64,000 nucleotides of DNA from OCS155 cluster bacterium AG-349-E07 (GTDB lineage: Bacteria > Actinomycetota > Acidimicrobiia > Actinomarinales > Actinomarinaceae): contig QCCZ01000001.1 in assembly GCA_003281085.1 (NCBI GenBank), positions 278,688 through 342,687 on the forward strand, read 5' to 3'. Below, piece after piece: positions 8,680 to 63,940 of this stretch. The notes under the pieces are model-generated. The model did not search any database. It was not told where the DNA came from and saw only the letters and a list, made by a program, of their open reading frames with translations. The position numbers were made by a program, and so were the translations under genes. Each line of letters opens with the position of its first letter. The first letter of the stretch is position 1.

Positions 8680-9720
8680 ATGAGATTAACTGAGTACTCA
8701 CATGGTGCTGGTTGAGCATGTAAGCTCTCACAAAAAGAGCTTGCTCAGGTACTGACGCATTTTAGACAACAAAATAATTCCAATACTTCACAAATACTGG
8801 TTGGTCTAGATTCGCCTGACGATGGAGGTGTAATTGATATTGGTAATGGAATCAGAATAGTTCAGACTGTAGACTTTTTTACACCTATATTGGATAACCC
8901 ATTTGATTGGGGAAGAGTTGCAGCCGCTAACGCATTATCTGATATTTATGCAATGGGTGGAACCCCAATATCTTCCTTACAGCTTGTTTCATGGCCAAGA
9001 GAAGATTTAAGTTTTGAAATATTGTCTGAAGTAATAAAAGGTGGTTTAGAGACTATGCAAAGTGTTGGTTGTAACATCATTGGAGGACACAGTATCGACG
9101 ACAAAGAGCCAAAGTATGGTTTTGCTGTAACAGGAATAATCAATGATGTTATTTATAAAAAAAGAAATCTTCAAGTAGGCGATAAACTTTTTTTGACTAA
9201 ACCTTTAGGTTCTGGAATTATCTCTTCCGCTATAAAAAAGAATATAGCAAGTGAAAAAGCGATATCTGAAGCAACTGAAGTGATGACAACATTGAATGAC
9301 AAAGCACTAGAAGCTGCCAGAGAATTAAATGCAAATGCAATAACAGATGTCACTGGTTTTGGACTATTAGGGCACTTAATAGAAATGATTGGAGATTCTG
9401 AAGTTACAGTAAATATATATTTAGATAATGTACCAGTTATAGAACATGCAAAAGAATATTTCAACAATGGAGTTTATCCTTCTGGGTCTAAAAGAAATTT
9501 TGATTCAGCTAAAGAAAATATAATTTATAACGATGATCAAGAATCTTTTGTAAAAATATTATCAGATGCTCAAACAAGTGGTGGTTTACTAATTTCAGCA
9601 CCAAATGACAACTCAATAGATTTAGATGATATATCTGACAGACTTGGACTAAATATATGGGAAATTGGAGATATTGTTTCTAGATATAAAAATAAAGTCA
9701 ATATCATTAATAGCAAATGA
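8680..9720 (+). CDS. selD: Selenide, water dikinase, itself a selenoprotein (Sec at codon 12)
   Basis: SelD makes selenophosphate from selenide and ATP, the selenium donor for selenocysteine synthesis. The ORF track begins at TTG 8890, which would remove the catalytic N-terminus. Reading from ATG 8680, preceded by GGAGGTGG at 8671-8678, gives MRLTEYSHGAG-U-ACKLSQK, with TGA at codon 12 (8713-8715) and the essential Lys at residue 15. SelD enzymes carry Cys or Sec at this exact place. The frame then continues open to 9720 through VQTVDFFTPILDNPFDWGR (Asp motif), ANALSDIYAMGG, GGHSIDDKEPKYG and DVTGFGLLGHL. Total length is 346 residues, typical of the family. It overlaps the next gene by 4 bp. 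Confidence 0.95.
8713..8715 (+). other. selD: In-frame TGA read as selenocysteine (SelD residue 12)
   Basis: This TGA interrupts the selD frame exactly where family members have catalytic Cys or Sec (G-x-G-C/U-x-C-K). The ribosome binding site and eleven family-like codons precede it and the conserved ACK follows it. A tRNA-Sec gene occurs at 34042-34133. Together these make recoding much more likely than a nonsense mutation. Confidence 0.93.
8713..8747 (+). promoter_or_regulatory. SECIS-like hairpin starting at the selD UGA
   Basis: UGAGC (8713-8717) pairs with GCUCA (8743-8747), and AAGCUCU (8722-8728) pairs with AGAGCUU (8736-8742). An AUGU bulge lies on the 5' side and the apical loop is a 7-nt CACAAAA. 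The twelve perfect pairs begin on the recoded codon, the position expected of a bacterial SECIS read by SelB. The loop lacks the guanines typical of the E. coli-type element, so the recognition details may differ. Confidence 0.75.
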
Positions 9721-15938: not shown

Positions 15939-17906
15939 TTAAACTAAACCACTAATTACTGCGCCAGCAACAAGTATTGCAATATAACTAAATAGACCAC
16001 CAACTATAGCTGCTAGCTTCATGCTGCGTGATATAGCACTTGGTCCAGCAAGATGATAAACAAGAACACCAAAAAACGGTACCAGATAAACCACCCCCAA
16101 CCACACATATTTCATACTTCCATTTACTTTGTCGTTAGAGTCAATATCTTTTATTGCTAAAGCAGCCCAAGCAGCGTACAACACAAACGGCATTAAGTAT
16201 CCGTATAGTTGAAATAACAGCTGCCATAATGTTGGGCTTGAAATTGGAACTCCGCTCATAATTATCTCCTTTTCAGCATTGTAGTAATTTTCTAAATCCT
16301 CATTAAGTAAATCCGTAGGTACATTTATTTCTTCTAAGTTTGGTACAAAAAATAAATTTATTGCTGGAGATGGCTTATTAATATCAGAAAACTCCATATT
16401 CATCTGTTCTTTTGGCCAAGGGTATTCTTTGTATCTATTTTTGTCTAAATCAGTAGTTTGTGCATCAGCAAAAAATCCAGCAAGCATCATGAGCCCCGAA
16501 GGGTCACCTTGTAGTGGAAACCTGGCAAGAATATTAGTTGAATTTATTGAACTACAGTTGTGTACTTGCTCAAGTAATGGAGGTGTGCTGGTTTGGTAAA
16601 CATTATTTTCAAAACAGTTTCCAGGACCCCAAGGACCAGCTAAGGCTAAATCTGTATACCCAGAGTCTAAAACAACATTATCAACAACACTTACATGTTG
16701 TGAAAAGTATAAATTTGCATCAAGCATCGGGCTTGCGACAATTCCATAACGGTCATGATTTATCACTAAGTTTTTTTCAATGACATCTCCAACCCTTCCT
16801 GGAACAACAATCCCCATCCCTTTAGCTACAACGCCAAAGCGATTTGTAGGAGCTTCATAGTTATTATTGTTAATCACAAGATTTCCTACAATTGTTGTTT
16901 CCCTACCAGGAGGATTGAGCTCAGAGTCAAGAGTATTTGGAACAATACCTGACATATTATCGCGCCATATATTGTTATATAAATACAGATGACCACCTGC
17001 ATTAGTTCCTGAATAACCTAATGCATTACCCTCAATTACATTATCGTATATTAAGGAATTACAGGGATAACACTGTCCTATATAAATTCCACTATCAGGG
17101 TGTCCAGAAGCGTATATATTATCAAATACACCGTCAGTTGAATTAAATGCATATACACCGTAATCTCCATTGTTGTAAACAGTTAAATAAGAACCTTTAA
17201 ACCCTTTTGCTGTATTCCAATAAACGCCATTTAGTGTAAAGTTTCTTACAGACAAATTCTCAACTGTTACCCCATCAGTATCATAAATCTGTATTCCGTT
17301 TTCACTCATAAATTGGCCATCTATTATTACTTTGTTTCTATCAGTACCCCTCAGTGTTAAATACGAAGTAGTCACAGTTATGCTTTCGTTATAAACTCCT
17401 GGGTTAATTAGAATCAAATCTCCTTCTTGTGCAACATCAACAGCATCTTGAATTTTTGTAAATTTTTTATCCTGTCCTACACTCAAAACATTTTCACTTA
17501 AACTGACGATCACTTTTTCAGGTTCAACTGCATAATCAACATCACCTACAATAACTGTACCGACCATACCTTTGTTGTTAGTTCCATGATATGGACAGTA
17601 ATAATCGTAAACTCCCGGCTCATTAAATGTGTGTTCATATTGATCGCCTTTTGTAATAATTCCATATTCAAAATAGTCTGATGATATTGCTTGCCATGAA
17701 CCGTCACTCGCAATCACATTGTGATCATTTGCTCCACCAGATTCCCAAATTACTGTAGTACCAGGTTCAACTCTTAAAACTTTTGGAGAAAATTCATCAT
17801 CGACGACTCTTATAACTTGTGGATCCAAATTTGCAGATTCTTCACCTCCACATGCAAAAAGCATCATAAGAAAAGATAAAAAAAGTATGCGCAGAATATT
17901 ATGCAT
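15939..17906 (-). CDS. Lipoprotein with cupredoxin domain, parallel beta-helix and C-terminal membrane domain
   Basis: This 655-residue exported protein has a signal peptide ending in the lipobox LFAC (Cys19). A plastocyanin-like domain follows (about 30-122) with a complete type-1 copper set visible: His62, Cys104 and His107 (YYCPYHG) and Met114. Residues 140-490 form a right-handed parallel beta-helix of NosD/CASH type, with repeated IxxNxI/V turns such as VENLSVRNFTLNGVYW. The last 100 residues hold three membrane segments that resemble a PLDc_N-type domain. It probably works at the outer face of the membrane in copper or electron handling. The cytochrome oxidase genes lie 3-7 kb away. Substrate and partners are unknown. 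Confidence 0.75.
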   Translation of the reverse strand: MHNILRILFLSFLMMLFACGGEESANLDPQVIRVVDDEFSPKVLRVEPGTTVIWESGGANDHNVIASDGSWQAISSDYFEYGIITKGDQYEHTFNEPGVYDYYCPYHGTNNKGMVGTVIVGDVDYAVEPEKVIVSLSENVLSVGQDKKFTKIQDAVDVAQEGDLILINPGVYNESITVTTSYLTLRGTDRNKVIIDGQFMSENGIQIYDTDGVTVENLSVRNFTLNGVYWNTAKGFKGSYLTVYNNGDYGVYAFNSTDGVFDNIYASGHPDSGIYIGQCYPCNSLIYDNVIEGNALGYSGTNAGGHLYLYNNIWRDNMSGIVPNTLDSELNPPGRETTIVGNLVINNNNYEAPTNRFGVVAKGMGIVVPGRVGDVIEKNLVINHDRYGIVASPMLDANLYFSQHVSVVDNVVLDSGYTDLALAGPWGPGNCFENNVYQTSTPPLLEQVHNCSSINSTNILARFPLQGDPSGLMMLAGFFADAQTTDLDKNRYKEYPWPKEQMNMEFSDINKPSPAINLFFVPNLEEINVPTDLLNEDLENYYNAEKEIIMSGVPISSPTLWQLLFQLYGYLMPFVLYAAWAALAIKDIDSNDKVNGSMKYVWLGVVYLVPFFGVLVYHLAGPSAISRSMKLAAIVGGLFSYIAILVAGAVISGLV

Positions 17907-31007: not shown

Positions 31008-32360
31008 TCAATCCCATTCCAAGTGGATAAATTCGTCAGAATTTTTAAATTGCACTTGATGCGCACCGAAATAATCTCTTTGAGCTTGAATTAAAGCAGA
31101 GGGATTAAATTTACTTGATGTTCCTACAAACCAGTTGTATGAAGAATTTATAACGGGAATTGAGATACTGCTATCAACACACGATTTAATTACTTCTTTT
31201 GCATCACTGAGATTATTCTGTAATAAATCTTGAATAGAAGAGGTTGTAGTAATAGGGTTCAGTAGCTTTGCATTACCCAATTCATTTAGAAGGTCAGATC
31301 TAATAATGCAACCAGCTGACCAATTCTGCAAGACCTCTTTTAAATCTATATCTAATTGCTCTTTGTTACTCACATGCTGGATAAAGAGCAAACCTTGAAT
31401 CATTGTTGCTAGTCTTGCAAAATATATTGCGTTGTTTAAAGATTCTGAAGAAATATCTATTAACTGTCCATCAATATTTTTTGACCATAAGTTTTCATAG
31501 TTACTCTCTACTCTTGCATTGAATGCTTCAAAGACACTAGGTAATGGAAAACCATAGTTAAGTGAGGTCTCAACTGTTAGTTTGCCTGTTCCTTTATGAT
31601 TTGCATTATATTGTATTTGATCAAGTAAATATCCTGAATCGTTTTTCTTTAATAAAATTTCTGAAGTTATTTCAATTAAGTATGAAGATCTGTTTTGTGG
31701 GGAAAATTCCTTGAAAAACTCACTTATCTCAATATTGGTATAGTTTGCTCTTTTTAAAATATGGTAAGCCTCAGTAATAATTTGCATTTCAGCATACTCA
31801 ATACCGTTATGAAGCATTTTAATAAAATGGCCAGTTCCGTAACCTTTATAAAACCCAATACTTAATGAGTTTTCATAACTCGCAGCTATTGAAGATAAAG
31901 AATCTTTTAATTCATTATTAATTGATTTCTCTGAACCAATCATTAAGGCCGGGCCATTTCTTGCACCCTCTTCTCCTCCCGAAACACCCATTCCTATAAA
32001 ATCTATCTCTTTCTCAGCACACAGAGCACCCAGTATGTTGCTGTCAAGATAGTATGCATTACCCCCGTCAATCAATATGTCATTTGGTTCGAGATAGCTA
32101 ATTACTTTTTTTGCCATATCGAATGTTGGTTTACCAGATGGAATTAGCATAAGAATTTTTCTCGGTTTTGGTAAAGATTCTATAAAATTCTCGAGGTCAG
32201 TAGAGCCAGAAATGTTCCCATGAGAGTCTTTCTCTATAAGAGAATTAATCTTATCTTCAGATTTATTAAATACGTGAACAGCCGTGCCCTTTTCAGAAAA
32301 ATTAAGAGCAATATTGCTACCCATTACCCCAACACCAATTAAACCAATAGATTTAGTCAT
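31008..32360 (-). CDS. gnd: 6-phosphogluconate dehydrogenase, decarboxylating
   Basis: This enzyme makes ribulose 5-phosphate and NADPH from 6-phosphogluconate in the pentose phosphate pathway. The 450-residue protein has the Rossmann motif GLIGVGVMGSNIALN at the N-terminus, VFNKSEDKI (NADP-selective position), GMGVSGGEEGARNGPALM near 125 and the catalytic KMLHNGIEYAEMQ near 183. The C-terminal all-helical domain has NHKGTGKLTVE and ends with QAQRDYFGAHQV. It overlaps the hflX start by 4 bp. The length is slightly below the usual 468-482. Confidence 0.94.
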   Translation of the reverse strand: MTKSIGLIGVGVMGSNIALNFSEKGTAVHVFNKSEDKINSLIEKDSHGNISGSTDLENFIESLPKPRKILMLIPSGKPTFDMAKKVISYLEPNDILIDGGNAYYLDSNILGALCAEKEIDFIGMGVSGGEEGARNGPALMIGSEKSINNELKDSLSSIAASYENSLSIGFYKGYGTGHFIKMLHNGIEYAEMQIITEAYHILKRANYTNIEISEFFKEFSPQNRSSYLIEITSEILLKKNDSGYLLDQIQYNANHKGTGKLTVETSLNYGFPLPSVFEAFNARVESNYENLWSKNIDGQLIDISSESLNNAIYFARLATMIQGLLFIQHVSNKEQLDIDLKEVLQNWSAGCIIRSDLLNELGNAKLLNPITTTSSIQDLLQNNLSDAKEVIKSCVDSSISIPVINSSYNWFVGTSSKFNPSALIQAQRDYFGAHQVQFKNSDEFIHLEWD

Positions 32361-33676
32361 GATAAAAGTTTAACAACATCTTTTTGAAGCAGATTTTCTA
32401 GGTAATAATTTCTAATTTCTACAATTACTTCTAATCCCTCTTCAATATTTTTAACACTTATGATGGAAGAGTACTTGTGTAGTTGATCCAAGTCCTTAGG
32501 CGATATTATAAGCGAAACTTCATTTAGATCACCAAAGACATTTGTTGTAATCTCGGAAATTAATTTTTCAATGTTTGTCCCTTTTGTTGATGATACAAAT
32601 ATTGCATCTGGATATTTTTCTGTTAAATAATTTAAAGACGCCTTGTCAATTCTATCTATTTTATTGAAAACCAATATTTCAGGCACATCTGCTTCAATCT
32701 GGTCTAGTATTTCATGCACAGTATTTATGTGCATTTCTGGTATTGCAGATGCTGCGTCAACAACATGAATTAATAAATTTGCTTCTTTAACAACTGTAAG
32801 TGTTGATTTAAAAGATTCAATCAATGTTGTTGGAAGATTTTGAATAAACCCAACTGTATCCGAGAGTATTATGTGCTCATTTATTCCATCAATTTTTAAC
32901 TCTCTTTGTAAAGAATCAACAGTTGCAAATAACTCATTAGCTACATATGTTTTCGAAGACGTAATTTTTTCTAGCATGGTAGATTTTCCTGCATTCGTAT
33001 AACCAACAATTGAAACAAGGGGTGTATTATTTTTCTTTCTAAAGCTAGATTGCACTTCTCTTTGTTTACTAACTTTTTTAATTTCCCTTTTTAATTTATT
33101 AATTCTGTTGTCAATTAATCTATTGTCTGTTTCAAGCTTTGTTTCACCAGGTCCTCTTGTTCCTATACCACCGCCCTGCTGATTCAAAGTTTTACCTAAG
33201 CCAGCTAAACGTGGTTTTAAGTAAATTGATAAAGCTAATTCAACTTGTAAGCTGGCTTCCTTTGACTGAGCATGAAGTGCAAATATATCAAGGATAAGAC
33301 CAGTCCTGTCTACTACATCACACTTGAATAAAGCTCTCAATTCTTTTTGTTGATTTGGAGTTAATTCGCAATCAAATAAAACCACATCAATATCATTTGC
33401 ATCTGAGATATCTACCAATTCTTTTATAGAACCTTTACCAATAAAAGTTTTAGGATCAATTTTTTCAACCCTTTTAGTCTGGATTATTGTTGGACTTGAT
33501 CCAGCAGTTTTTACTAAATTTACAAGCTCTTTAAGAGACTCTTCCTTGTCAGCTCTTATTTCGTTTTTTAAGACTATTCCAATTAATAATGCTTTTTGAG
33601 TAGTGACAAAGATATCTCTATCAGATACTGTTAGAAGCCTTCTATCTGATTGGTTTGGATTATTTCTTTGATTCAA
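32357..33676 (-). CDS. hflX: GTPase HflX
   Basis: HflX is a ribosome-associated GTPase that splits or rescues 70S ribosomes under stress. The 439-residue protein has the N-terminal HflX domain with FDCELTPNQQKEL and the linker GGGIGTRGPGETKLETD near 180. The G domain shows GYTNAGKSTMLEKI (P-loop) near 225, DTVGFIQNLP (G3) and NKID (G4). It starts directly after the Cpn10-like gene ends and overlaps gnd by 4 bp, forming a minus-strand unit. Confidence 0.94.
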   Translation of the reverse strand: MNQRNNPNQSDRRLLTVSDRDIFVTTQKALLIGIVLKNEIRADKEESLKELVNLVKTAGSSPTIIQTKRVEKIDPKTFIGKGSIKELVDISDANDIDVVLFDCELTPNQQKELRALFKCDVVDRTGLILDIFALHAQSKEASLQVELALSIYLKPRLAGLGKTLNQQGGGIGTRGPGETKLETDNRLIDNRINKLKREIKKVSKQREVQSSFRKKNNTPLVSIVGYTNAGKSTMLEKITSSKTYVANELFATVDSLQRELKIDGINEHIILSDTVGFIQNLPTTLIESFKSTLTVVKEANLLIHVVDAASAIPEMHINTVHEILDQIEADVPEILVFNKIDRIDKASLNYLTEKYPDAIFVSSTKGTNIEKLISEITTNVFGDLNEVSLIISPKDLDQLHKYSSIISVKNIEEGLEVIVEIRNYYLENLLQKDVVKLLS

Positions 33677-34006
33677 TTATTTCATTATAGGTAATTGGCC
33701 ATTTTCAGAAGATTTTGAAAGCTCTTCTTCAGCAATAATTTGAGATTCTCTAACAGCTAAAACTACTTTTCCAGTTGGAGGCCAGATAAATTTCCATGCA
33801 CCACTAGCTACAGCCCAGAACTGCTGTCCTGTATCAACATCAATAAGAGGAAGTGCTTCTGAAGTTTTTTCACTACCAGCTGGTACAAGAAGTCCTGACT
33901 TAGTAATTGTCTCTTCTTTTAGGTGACCAACTCTCCAACCTGGAGAAACTTTGAATCCGGCAGGTGCTTCTTGCACCTCATCTAATAAGTTTTTTTCTTC
34001 TGCCAT
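33677..34006 (-). CDS. Small soluble protein, possibly divergent Cpn10/GroES-like
   Basis: This 109-residue protein contains KEETITKSGLLVPAGSEKTS (about 29-48), which resembles the GroES mobile loop with its hydrophobic tripeptide. KVVLAVRESQIIAEEEL (about 79-95) resembles the C-terminal strand LILRESDILA of GroES. The middle (QQFWAVASGAWKFIWPPTG) does not match the usual GroES core. It may be a diverged GroES-fold protein or a lineage-specific protein of unknown role; the resemblance is by eye only. It lies directly before hflX without spacing and 36 bp after the tRNA-Sec gene on the same strand. Confidence 0.5.
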   Translation of the reverse strand: MAEEKNLLDEVQEAPAGFKVSPGWRVGHLKEETITKSGLLVPAGSEKTSEALPLIDVDTGQQFWAVASGAWKFIWPPTGKVVLAVRESQIIAEEELSKSSENGQLPIMK

Positions 34007-34041
34007 TTTTCTATATTAAACATGTATATCTTATAAAGTAG

Positions 34042-34133
34042 CGGAGGTGGACAGGAATCGAACCTGCCAAAGACTTTTACACCTTTCAACAGTTTTGAAG
34101 ACTGTGGAGCCCACCAGGCGCTCATTCACCTCC
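34042..34133 (-). tRNA. selC: Selenocysteine tRNA, tRNA-Sec(UCA)
   Basis: The minus strand folds into a 92-nt tRNA. The acceptor starts GGAGGTGA and ends CACCTCC plus discriminator G. The anticodon stem-loop is ACAGT-CTTCAAA-ACTGT, with anticodon TCA that reads UGA. A long variable arm follows (AAAGG / TCTTT pairing), and the T arm GCAGG-TTCGATT-CCTGT nearly repeats the E. coli selC T arm. The D stem is GAGC/GCTC. Length, long extra arm and UCA anticodon are diagnostic of tRNA-Sec. The eighth acceptor pair is an A-C mismatch. CCA is not encoded (GCT follows). It decodes the selD UGA in this window. Confidence 0.93.
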
Positions 34134-34185: not shown

Positions 34186-34770
34186 ATGAAAAGTTTTCAC
34201 CAAATATTTAATGAGCTTAAGAAAGATAGAGGATTAAGCAACAAACAGATTGCTTCATTTACTGGTGTAAAACTAAAAGAAGTTAAACAATGGGAAGCAG
34301 GAACCAGTTTTCCAATTGAAACTAAGGTAGTTGATGCACTAGAAGGATTACTAGGTACTGAAATTAGCGAATCATTAGAAGGATACAGTTCGAAAAGCAA
34401 AATAAATAGCCAAGTCAAAACTGCCGAGGACGATATTTTCAAAGTAAAAAAAGAAAAAATAGATGTTACAAATACAAAGATTGATAAGTTACGAAACTTG
34501 TTTCAAAAACAACCTCAGAATACTACGGAGTATGAATTTGATAATGAAATTCAACACATAACGGATGATTACTATTTTGAAGAAGACACAGCTGTGCCTG
34601 CACAAAATGTTTTAGAAAAACCCTATATATATGATGAAAATCAAATAGGTTTTTATTTTTCGAGAAATTTAAAAACTATTGGTCTGCTTTCTGTTTTAGG
34701 TGTAATTATTTTTAGTTTTTTTCAGCTATTTTGGGACTCCTTTAACTTATTTTTAGAAAACTTACTGTGA
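34186..34770 (+). CDS. HTH (XRE-like) protein with C-terminal membrane helix
   Basis: This 194-residue protein has an N-terminal helix-turn-helix of Cro/C1 type (about 5-62, LSNKQIASFTGVKLKEVKQWEAG), a charged linker (about 65-160) and one hydrophobic segment near the C-terminus (about 164-183, IGLLSVLGVIIFSFFQLFW). The layout recalls membrane-tethered regulators and RodZ-like proteins, though RodZ usually has a periplasmic domain that is missing here. Its TGA overlaps the GTG start of ctaA (GTGA), so translation is coupled to heme A synthase. Function is unknown. Confidence 0.6.
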   Translation: MKSFHQIFNELKKDRGLSNKQIASFTGVKLKEVKQWEAGTSFPIETKVVDALEGLLGTEISESLEGYSSKSKINSQVKTAEDDIFKVKKEKIDVTNTKIDKLRNLFQKQPQNTTEYEFDNEIQHITDDYYFEEDTAVPAQNVLEKPYIYDENQIGFYFSRNLKTIGLLSVLGVIIFSFFQLFWDSFNLFLENLL

Positions 34771-61305: not shown

Positions 61306-61312
61306 GAGTTTT

Positions 61313-61402
61313 GCATAAAGAGAGGGAAGCCTCAGCAACCTAGATTGCCAACTAAGGTGCTTTTTGATGTGGTTATTACAACAAAAAATGGCTTTTTCCT
61401 TT
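61313..61402 (+). ncRNA. SAM riboswitch (SAM-I/IV type) in the metK leader
   Basis: The leader contains the conserved core CAGCAACC (61333-61340) followed by CTAAGGTGC (61352-61360), as in the SAM-I/SAM-IV clan. P3 is CCTAG paired with CTAAGG. Its loop bases GCCA (61347-61350) can pair with TGGC (61389-61392), a SAM-IV-like pseudoknot. P1 pairs weakly (ATAAAG with CTTTTAT). The ribosome binding site AAGGAG (61411) follows 9 nt after the aptamer, so control is probably translational. It senses S-adenosylmethionine, the product of metK. Confidence 0.85.
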
Positions 61403-61422: not shown

Positions 61423-62511
61423 TTGTTTAAATATGTCACAGCTGAAACTGTATCTCCCGGACATCCAGATAAAATAGCAGATTTAATTTCAGATTATGTT
61501 TTAACCAAAGCTTTAGAGAATAATCCTTCATCAAGAGTGGCTGTAGAAACAGTTTTAACTGGAACAAAAGGTGGCGGTCTAGTAATGGTTGGTGGAGAAA
61601 TAAGTGAAATTGCAAATATTTCTACAGAAGACATTAAAACAATTGTTCATGAAGCACTTAGCAAAACTATAAAAACTAGTTTTGAAGACTTTGATCTTGA
61701 TAGATTAAATATTTATAACGAACTAACACCTCAGTCAGAAGAAATAAGGGCAGCAGTAGAAGAAGACGAAGACCAAGGAGCGGGGGACCAGGGAATAATG
61801 ATTGGATTTGCAACTAATAAAACAGAGTCTTTTATGCCTCCAACATTTGATATTTCTAGAAATATACAAAAGACATTGTGGGATTTACAAAATTCAGACC
61901 CAATGCTTGACCTTGATTCAAAAGTTCAGGTAACTACTGGGGGAGATAAAGCAAAAGTAGTTGTGTCAACTCAACATAAAAAAGAGATTAATATTCAAAA
62001 ACTTTACGATCAGGTGTCAGAAATTGTAGAAAATCATGTAAATCAGAATTTTCAATTGGATTTAAATCCTTCAGGGTCTTTTGTTAAAGGAGGTCCAGCA
62101 GGTGATACTGGTTTAACAGGTAGAAAAATTGTAGTAGACGCATATGGTCCATCTGTACCGGTAGGCGGTGGAGCATTTTCGGGTAAAGACCCTAGCAAGG
62201 TTGATAGATCAGCTGCCTATGCAGCAAGACATTTAGCAAAAAACATTGTTTTTCATAAACTTGCTGATGAATGTCTTGTTAGAGTGTCCTATGCTATAGG
62301 AAAAGCAGAGCCGTATGAATTGACAGTTAACACCTTTGATACTTCAAATGTTAAAGAAAATGTCATTAATGACTTTGTCAATAAGTTTGACATGAAACCT
62401 GGAGCAATTATTGAGAGACTCGACTTAATAAATGTCAACTATAGAATAGATACACTTTTTTCCCACTTTGGTCATGATGATAGAAATTGGGAAAAAATAG
62501 AAAATATTTAG
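61423..62511 (+). CDS. metK: S-adenosylmethionine synthetase
   Basis: MetK makes SAM from methionine and ATP. The 362-residue protein has GHPDKIADLISDYVL near residue 13, the signature GAGDQGIMIGFATN near 117 and the second signature GGGAFSGKDPSKVDRSAAYAAR near 246. It is slightly shorter than the usual 380-400. The start is TTG at 61423 with AAGGAG 7 nt upstream; no in-frame ATG is near. A SAM riboswitch lies in its leader. Confidence 0.96.
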   Translation: MFKYVTAETVSPGHPDKIADLISDYVLTKALENNPSSRVAVETVLTGTKGGGLVMVGGEISEIANISTEDIKTIVHEALSKTIKTSFEDFDLDRLNIYNELTPQSEEIRAAVEEDEDQGAGDQGIMIGFATNKTESFMPPTFDISRNIQKTLWDLQNSDPMLDLDSKVQVTTGGDKAKVVVSTQHKKEINIQKLYDQVSEIVENHVNQNFQLDLNPSGSFVKGGPAGDTGLTGRKIVVDAYGPSVPVGGGAFSGKDPSKVDRSAAYAARHLAKNIVFHKLADECLVRVSYAIGKAEPYELTVNTFDTSNVKENVINDFVNKFDMKPGAIIERLDLINVNYRIDTLFSHFGHDDRNWEKIENI

Positions 62512-62536: not shown

Positions 62537-62546
62537 TTTTAATAAC

Positions 62547-62641
62547 ATAAAGAGAAGGTTAAGGCCTCGGCAACCTGGAAGACTATCCAAGGTGCCTGAA
62601 GATGTGGCAGAAATGCAACTAAATAGTCAAAGTCCTTCTCC
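62547..62641 (+). ncRNA. SAM riboswitch (SAM-I/IV type) in the metY leader
   Basis: The core is CTCGGCAACC (62566-62575) and CCAAGGTGCC (62587-62596), matching the SAM-I/IV clan. P1 is GAGAAGG (62552-62558) with CCTTCTC (62634-62640). P3 is CCTGGA with TCCAAGG. The P3 loop GACTA (62581-62585) pairs with TAGTC (62624-62628), a pseudoknot of SAM-IV kind. TTCTCC (62636-62641) is also complementary to the ribosome binding site GGAGAA (62650-62655), which points to control of translation. Confidence 0.9.
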
Positions 62642-62659: not shown

Positions 62660-63940
62660 ATGAAGTTTAATTCAAAACTAATACATGCAGGTTGGGATTC
62701 TGATGAAAATTCTGAAGGATCAATAACAGTTCCTATTTATAGAACAACAGCCTATCAATTTAACAATACCGAACACGCTGCAAACCTATTTGGCTTAAAA
62801 GAGTTTGGTAATATTTACTCTAGATTAGGCAACCCAACAGTTGGAGCATTGGAAGCTAGATTAACAGCCCTTGAAGAAGGTGCTATGTGTGTAGCATTAT
62901 CCTCAGGAACCTCTGCTGTGATGTACTCACTAATCAACATCATGAGTCAGGGGGATAATTTTGTTACTGCAAATCAACTTTACGGCGGAACCTATACAAT
63001 GTTTGATAATATCTTGCCAGAATATGGTATAAATTCTAAAAAAGTAGATATTACTGATTTAGAAGCTGTTGAAGCAGCAATTGATGAAAAGACTCGAGCA
63101 ATTTATTGTGAGACAATAACCAACCCAGGATTAGTTGTTGCTGACATATCAGCTTTAGCAGATATTGCACATTCAAAGGGAATTCCTTTAATTGTAGATG
63201 CTACCTTCACAACATCAGCCATACTAAAACCTTTTGAATATGGTGCGGACATCGTTGTCTACTCATTAACTAAATGGATGTCGGGTCATGGAAGAGTTAT
63301 TGCAGGTGCAGTGATTGAAAAAGGTGGTTTTGATTGGGGTAATGGTAATTTTCCACTTTATGATAAACCCGATACCAGTTATGGAGGTATGAGATGGGGT
63401 CATGACCTAGGTGATTTAGGAAATGTTGCATACTCACTCAGATTGAGAACAGTTCCTTTGCGAAATCTTGGTGCAAATATGTCTCCAGATACTGCTTTTG
63501 AAGTTATGAGTGGCCTCGAAACACTGGCTCTAAGAATGGAACGTCATTGTGAGAATGCAATTAAAGCTGCGGAATATTTGACTAAACACGATCTTGTAGA
63601 GTGGGTTAGGTTTCCTGGACTCAAAGATGATCCAGCATATGATCTGTCAGAAAAGTATTTAAAAGGTACTGGTGGAACAATGGTGGTCTTTGGGATTAAA
63701 GGCGGAAAAGATGCTGGACAAAAATTTATAGATAATTTAAAAATGTTCAGACATGTTGCAAATGTTGGAGACACTAGATCTTTAGCTATTCACCCAGCAA
63801 CAACTACACATTCTCAATTAGATGAAGATCAACTTATTGCAGCGGGCTCACCACCTGAACTAATAAGACTTTCAATAGGCATTGAAGATATTGACGACAT
63901 CATTGAGGATCTTTCACAAGCACTTGAAAGTACAAAATAG
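62660..63940 (+). CDS. metY: O-acetylhomoserine sulfhydrylase (PLP trans-sulfuration family)
   Basis: This enzyme makes homocysteine from O-acetyl- or O-succinylhomoserine and sulfide in methionine synthesis. The 426-residue protein starts KLIHAGWDSDENSEGSITVPIY and has YSRLGNPTVGALEARLTALE near 53 and ALSSGTSAVMYSL near 79 (PLP phosphate). The PLP lysine is in VVYSLTKWMSGHGRVIAGAV near 203. The long insert after the lysine separates MetY from shorter MetB/MetZ. It is preceded by its own SAM riboswitch, which supports the methionine role. Confidence 0.93.
   Translation: MKFNSKLIHAGWDSDENSEGSITVPIYRTTAYQFNNTEHAANLFGLKEFGNIYSRLGNPTVGALEARLTALEEGAMCVALSSGTSAVMYSLINIMSQGDNFVTANQLYGGTYTMFDNILPEYGINSKKVDITDLEAVEAAIDEKTRAIYCETITNPGLVVADISALADIAHSKGIPLIVDATFTTSAILKPFEYGADIVVYSLTKWMSGHGRVIAGAVIEKGGFDWGNGNFPLYDKPDTSYGGMRWGHDLGDLGNVAYSLRLRTVPLRNLGANMSPDTAFEVMSGLETLALRMERHCENAIKAAEYLTKHDLVEWVRFPGLKDDPAYDLSEKYLKGTGGTMVVFGIKGGKDAGQKFIDNLKMFRHVANVGDTRSLAIHPATTTHSQLDEDQLIAAGSPPELIRLSIGIEDIDDIIEDLSQALESTK

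Follow-up and report, generated by a model that had tools for sequence, protein, structure and literature searches.

A conserved mismatch in the selenocysteine tRNA of Candidatus Actinomarina probably marks a switch to another base pair that preserves the full length of the long arm

INTRODUCTION

Can a selenocysteine tRNA (tRNA-Sec) in which the eighth acceptor pair reads A-C still form the long arm that is special to this tRNA? The question is raised by a gene in a 64-kb stretch of DNA, called the window here; the window is part of contig C1, in an assembly of 955 kb that is 85% complete. Seryl-tRNA synthetase places serine on tRNA-Sec, SelA converts the serine to selenocysteine (Sec) with selenophosphate supplied by SelD, and SelB delivers the charged tRNA to in-frame UGAs. 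The length of the acceptor plus T arm and the eighth acceptor pair are the textbook determinants of SelB binding and of rejection by EF-Tu, as worked out in Escherichia coli.

The arms described for tRNA-Sec are 8/5 in bacteria (acceptor/T stem) and 9/4 in archaea and eukaryotes (PMC5330540, PMC7609411). A 7/5 or 12-bp arm is on record for a number of bacterial groups, Rubrobacter among them (PMC5330540), and for Epsilonproteobacteria (PMC4607533), and U66 is deleted in two alphaproteobacterial tRNA-Sec genes (PMC8124441). A review gives C7-G66, G49·U65, and C50-G64 as the E. coli pairs for SelB recognition and EF-Tu rejection (PMC9976931); C7-G66 in that naming is the eighth pair, numbered 8:66 here. 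In the open-licence literature we found no account of a 7/6 arm, nor any of an eighth position that is left unpaired across many Actinomycetota, and a published genome paper on this order makes no mention of selenium.

RESULTS

The window encodes a full-length tRNA-Sec

ARAGORN identified a single tRNA in the window, a tRNA-SeC with anticodon TCA, at 34041-34133 on the minus strand. The Rfam tRNA-Sec model RF01852 matched the same strand at 34043-34133, over its full length, with 75.4 bits (E 1.2e-13), well above its gathering cutoff of 47 bits. A first-pass annotation, made without database searches, had placed a tRNA-Sec at 34042-34133 and had named a covariance model as the means of checking it; the model bears out the identity, and the extent proved exact, since base 34042 is the discriminator G. 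The gene (selC; 34042..34133, minus strand) consists of 91 nucleotides, as RNA GGAGGUGAAUGAGCGCCUGGUGGGCUCCACAGUCUUCAAAACUGUUGAAAGGUGUAAAAGUCUUUGGCAGGUUCGAUUCCUGUCCACCUCC, followed by G73 at 34042. The UCA anticodon (34096..34098, minus strand) and G73 expected of RF01852 members are both present. CCA is absent from the gene, which reads GCTA at G73 and beyond; within the genus, CCA is encoded after G73 in 5 genomes (L023, L029, L030, L042, and L046) and is lacking in the other 35. The fold has a shuffle z-score of -2.6. The 5-bp T stem and T loop (34051..34067, minus strand) contain G49·U65 and C50-G64, seen in the sequence and in the genus and phylum comparisons and assigned their role from PMC9976931; the T arm differs from that of E. 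coli selC by one loop base, so that its earlier description as E. coli-like was apt.

The gene is found in 40 of 42 Actinomarina genomes, and its fold is conserved in those 40. The named genomes in which the 5' part of the tRNA is matched exactly are mostly those of Candidatus Actinomarina and other Acidimicrobiia. Genes for HflX, a helix-turn-helix protein, and CtaA flank it at 38 of the 39 genus loci examined; in the window these conserved neighbors include an HflX-type GTPase identified by Pfam (32357..33676, minus strand) and a divergent gene with a weak Pfam helix-turn-helix match (34186..34770, plus strand). The tRNA gene is followed on its own strand by an open reading frame for a 109-amino-acid protein (33677..34006, minus strand) that has no Pfam match and was assigned to no family. 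We consider the gene to be, almost certainly, a functional tRNA-Sec of Candidatus Actinomarina (Acidimicrobiia).

The genome carries a Sec system that is evidently in use

SelA, SelB, and SelD are all encoded in the genome, together with UGA-containing selenoprotein genes. selA (C1:106480-107739) scored 383 bits and is directly followed by selB (C1:107751-109376), which scored 202 bits, below the NCBIfam cutoff, but combines a GTPase domain of the EF-Tu type with a SelB winged-helix domain. The pair lies about 203 kb from the tRNA gene on the same contig, and the end of selD lies 24.3 kb from it (9720 to 34042), in agreement with the earlier observation that the tRNA gene sits about 25 kb from selD and apart from selA and selB.

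selD itself (8680..9720, plus strand) is read through one in-frame UGA, the Sec codon at 8713..8715 (plus strand), to give MRLTEYSHGAGUACKL...; the part after the UGA matches TIGR00476 with 286 bits. A standard open reading frame finder shortens the gene to a TTG start at 8890, but the start is very probably the ATG at 8680, which is preceded by an AGGAGG ribosome-binding site. The UGA, in the context HGAGUACKL, is conserved in the genus, being present in 34 of 34 genomes with a SelD match. Folding places a possible bacterial SECIS hairpin just 3' of it (8720..8744, plus strand), to which pair counts over 15 sequences give modest support. A second UGA gene, outside the window, was found by a scan for UGA-interrupted genes; it encodes a SelW-like Rdx protein with a C-x-x-U motif (L440:10441-10674, equivalent to G000:C1:257441-257674; 58.8 bits to PF10262), and its UGA is kept in 37 of 37 Actinomarina matches. 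The scan covered contig C1, which makes up roughly one third of the assembly, so the list of selenoproteins is incomplete and the genome has at least two UGA genes. Because the selD and Rdx UGAs are conserved across the genus, the Sec system is evidently in use, and the sequences point to a working system in this Actinomarina, in which the window tRNA-Sec would serve both UGAs by the serine, SelA, SelD, and SelB route. Among 57 members of the class outside the genus, tRNA-Sec and selA were both present in 33, both absent in 20, and discordant in 4.

The 8:66 mismatch is a norm of the lineage

Acceptor nucleotides 1 to 7 are all paired with the last seven nucleotides of the window tRNA. At the eighth position A8 (34126, minus strand) faces C66 (34050, minus strand), as the first-pass annotation had read it, and cmscan likewise marks 8:66 as a nonstandard pair; the eight standard acceptor pairs of a bacterial 8/5 tRNA-Sec are therefore not all present. 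A8·C66 occurs in 40 of 40 parsed Actinomarina tRNA-Sec genes, comprising 12 distinct tRNA sequences, which rules out a lone quirk or a sequencing error.

Acceptor and T stems were parsed in tRNA-Sec genes drawn from the genus, from its class, and from the phylum. In sampled Actinomycetota families with an 8-nucleotide 3' acceptor strand, a standard 8:66 pair is missing from 38 of 48 family states (U·C in 18 families, A·C in 9, G·A in 5, G·G in 4, C·A in 1, and U·U in 1); the pair is C-G in 9 families and U-G in 1. Other Actinomycetota families (groups f12, f14, f17, f22, f37, and f38) lack nucleotide 66 and have a 7/5 form. The 8:66 mismatch is thus the norm for much of Actinomycetota and no peculiarity of the window gene. 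The first-pass annotation had suggested that it could matter for recognition by SelB and SelA; it does not stop the system, since selA, selB, selD, and two UGA genes are kept.

A rough cross-phylum sample was provided by viral contigs (38 distinct parsed sequences, a few of them not tRNA-Sec). Here 8:66 takes the forms A-U, U-A, C-G, and G-C, so the eighth pair is truly paired elsewhere. A query of viral contigs with a protein from the window yielded nothing informative. The arrangement U8/C66/G48/U65 recurs in five viral-contig tRNA-Sec-like genes (L343, L347, L357, L387, and L415, beginning GGCGACG... or GGTGACG...), which may be phage-borne tRNA-Sec genes. Within the class, four families have 7/5 tRNA-Sec genes (L063, L064, L070-L072, L074, L075, L079, L083, L084, and L087), with one nucleotide fewer between the T stem and G73 and a D stem without a bulge, in genomes with a high-scoring selA.

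C66 is predicted to pair with G48

When the window tRNA is folded to minimum free energy, C66 is paired with G48 (34068, minus strand), which opens a 6-bp T stem; with the 7-bp acceptor stem this gives 13 bp. The pair probability is 0.94 for 48:66, 0 for 8:66, and 0.004 for 49:66 with U65 bulged. Mean P(48:66) is 0.92 over the A·C genes and 0.87 over the U·C genes. The E. coli selC control, its sequence verified against 5,394 genomes of that species, gave the opposite result, with 0.997 for 8:66 and 0 for 48:66. Nearest-neighbor folding of this kind leaves out the tertiary contacts and modifications of tRNA.

The comparison with relatives is consistent with this fold. C66 is always accompanied by G48 and by a 49:65 pair of the G49·U65 type (94 genes, 27 families); nucleotides 8 and 66 are decoupled in this class, since 8 is A in 9 families and U in 18 against a constant C66 and G48 (94 of 94 genes). 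G49·U65 and C50-G64 occur together in 91 of the 94 C66 genes, whereas among the other sampled Actinomycetota genes with an 8-nucleotide strand they do so in 1 of 32. A family-level Fisher test gave a P value of 2.8e-5, but it treats families as independent and so is no proof of 48:66; the 27 C66 families all belong to one phylum and may represent one inherited state. G48 is, moreover, invariant in all sampled Actinomycetota genes with an 8-nucleotide strand. Because it never varies, 48:66 has no covariation support, and because it also persists opposite a G or A at 66, with which it could form no pair, G48 may serve some other purpose. About ten families carry 8:66 mismatches (G·A, G·G, and C·A) that 48:66 could not rescue.

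On this evidence we lean toward 7/6 pairing through G48-C66 in the window tRNA-Sec; it is the best-supported model for the arm, a prediction and not a demonstration. According to the model, nucleotides 8 and 66 would not pair with each other in the window tRNA and its relatives. C66 would instead pair with G48, the lone nucleotide that separates the variable stem from the T stem, and A8 would be freed into the acceptor-D linker. As C66 has a Watson-Crick partner in G48, the coaxial arm would keep 13 layers, made up as 7 + 6 and not as 8 + 5, and the strand switch would lie at 7/48 in place of 8/49. Of the E. coli identity pairs, G49·U65 and C50-G64 are present and the C7-G66 equivalent is absent; the 13-layer length and the two retained pairs would together maintain SelB binding and EF-Tu rejection. 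A functional tRNA-Sec with a 7/6 arm and preserved SelB/EF-Tu discrimination is, overall, the explanation that we judge probable.

The first-pass annotation had proposed that the mismatch makes the acceptor stem effectively 7 bp. That stands for the acceptor stem proper, which is predicted to have 7 bp; it does not carry over to the arm, which, with C66 able to pair with G48, is predicted at 13 bp and is not equivalent to the canonical 12-bp arm.

Other readings of the arm

The reading that competes best is a standard 8/5 fold in which A·C or A+·C is stacked at the acceptor/T junction, length rather than pairing is what matters, and G48 does something else. Functioning relatives have G·A, G·G, or C·A at the same site, which therefore tolerates mispairing; the true 8:66 pairs of the viral-contig sample and the retention of G48 opposite a nucleotide 66 that it cannot pair with also fit, and an A+·C wobble could be stacked inside an 8/5 arm in Actinomarina. 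However, nucleotide 8 is A or U in the C66 class, and U·C and A+·C differ in geometry, which leaves no conserved noncanonical 8:66 pair; folding, too, gives no 8:66 and favors 48:66. We regard this reading as possible but unlikely.

A good deal less likely still is an acceptor stem of effectively 7 bp in an arm that works as a 12-bp (7/5) one, possibly with U65 bulged and G49 paired with C66. There are precedents: published tRNA-Sec include 7/5 and 12-bp-plus-bulge forms (PMC5330540, PMC4607533), and the related class families that are one nucleotide short and read as 7/5 (CCUGC-CACCUCC) nonetheless keep selA. In the window tRNA, however, eight nucleotides remain between the T stem and G73, where a 7/5 form has seven; their use in a 13-pair arm as 7 + 6 is a prediction. 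The bulged-U65 variant was rejected on its pair probability of 0.004, against 0.94 for 48:66.

An arm of the archaeal and eukaryotic 9/4 type, with A9-U65 as the ninth pair, is very improbable. The register printed in the Rfam alignment suggests it, as cmscan aligns A9 with U65, but nucleotide 9 is A in only 58 of the 94 C66-class genes and C, T, or G in 36, with U65 constant; A9-U65 is therefore not maintained, and we rejected the 9/4 register. The SelA and SelB of the genome are, moreover, bacterial. That the gene is decaying or nonfunctional, as its one nonstandard pair and its position apart from selA and selB might suggest, can practically be dismissed, given that gene and mismatch are conserved in 40 species-level genomes with conserved neighbors and that the UGAs of two genes are conserved.

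DISCUSSION

The window tRNA-Sec resembles E. coli selC, an 8/5 tRNA, in its UCA anticodon, its D stem of 6 bp (in which a G is bulged here), its long variable arm, and G73, as well as in G48, G49·U65, C50-G64, and the 13-layer acceptor plus T arm predicted for it. It departs from E. coli selC, which has C-G as its eighth pair, in that A8 and C66 are unpaired with each other, G48 being the predicted partner of C66. With the 7/5 (12-bp) bacterial tRNA-Sec (PMC5330540, PMC4607533) it shares a 7-bp acceptor stem, predicted here, and genomes that contain selA and selB; unlike them, being neither one nucleotide short nor bulged, it retains the nucleotide and, by prediction, the 13th pair. The 9/4 tRNA-Sec of archaea and eukaryotes likewise have a 13-bp acceptor plus T arm, but the ninth pair is not maintained here and the SelA pathway is bacterial. 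Allo-tRNAs and selC* tRNA-Cys (8/4 and 9/3; PMC7609411) also redistribute pairs between acceptor and T stem, but in those tRNAs pairs are shifted into the acceptor stem, whereas here the shift would be into the T stem, and a full Sec system is present. Three weak tRNA-Sec-like matches of 53 to 56 bits, with stems that could not be parsed, are possibly allo-tRNA-like: L090, in a genome without selA (G055), and L089 (G093) and L091 (G052), which are second copies.

Behind the conserved mismatch there is thus probably a different base pair, one that preserves the full length of this tRNA's special long arm. More tentatively, much of Actinomycetota may use a 7/6 tRNA-Sec, a third route, beside 8/5 and 9/4, to the 13-bp arm that SelB requires and EF-Tu rejects, in which the extra pair, G48-C66, would come from the variable-arm side and not from the acceptor strand; loss of nucleotide 66 would then have led to the 7/5 forms of related families. 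A phylum that mostly does without the eighth pair and yet evidently keeps Sec insertion shows that the rule derived from E. coli does not hold everywhere. Its paired, mismatched, shifted, and 7/5 forms make up a natural set for testing what SelB measures. The gene in the window is best seen as an ordinary functional tRNA-Sec that belongs to a phylum-wide structural variant open to direct test. With it, one of the most streamlined free-living bacteria of the sea is documented as having a complete Sec system that includes at least two UGA genes.

Further features were noted elsewhere in the window. A plastocyanin-like copper domain is fused to a parallel beta-helix domain at 15939-17906. Two SAM-I/IV riboswitches occur in neighboring units, one (61308-61398) before an S-adenosylmethionine synthetase gene (61423-62511) and one (62540-62632) before a gene for a pyridoxal phosphate (PLP) enzyme of Cys/Met metabolism (62660-63940).
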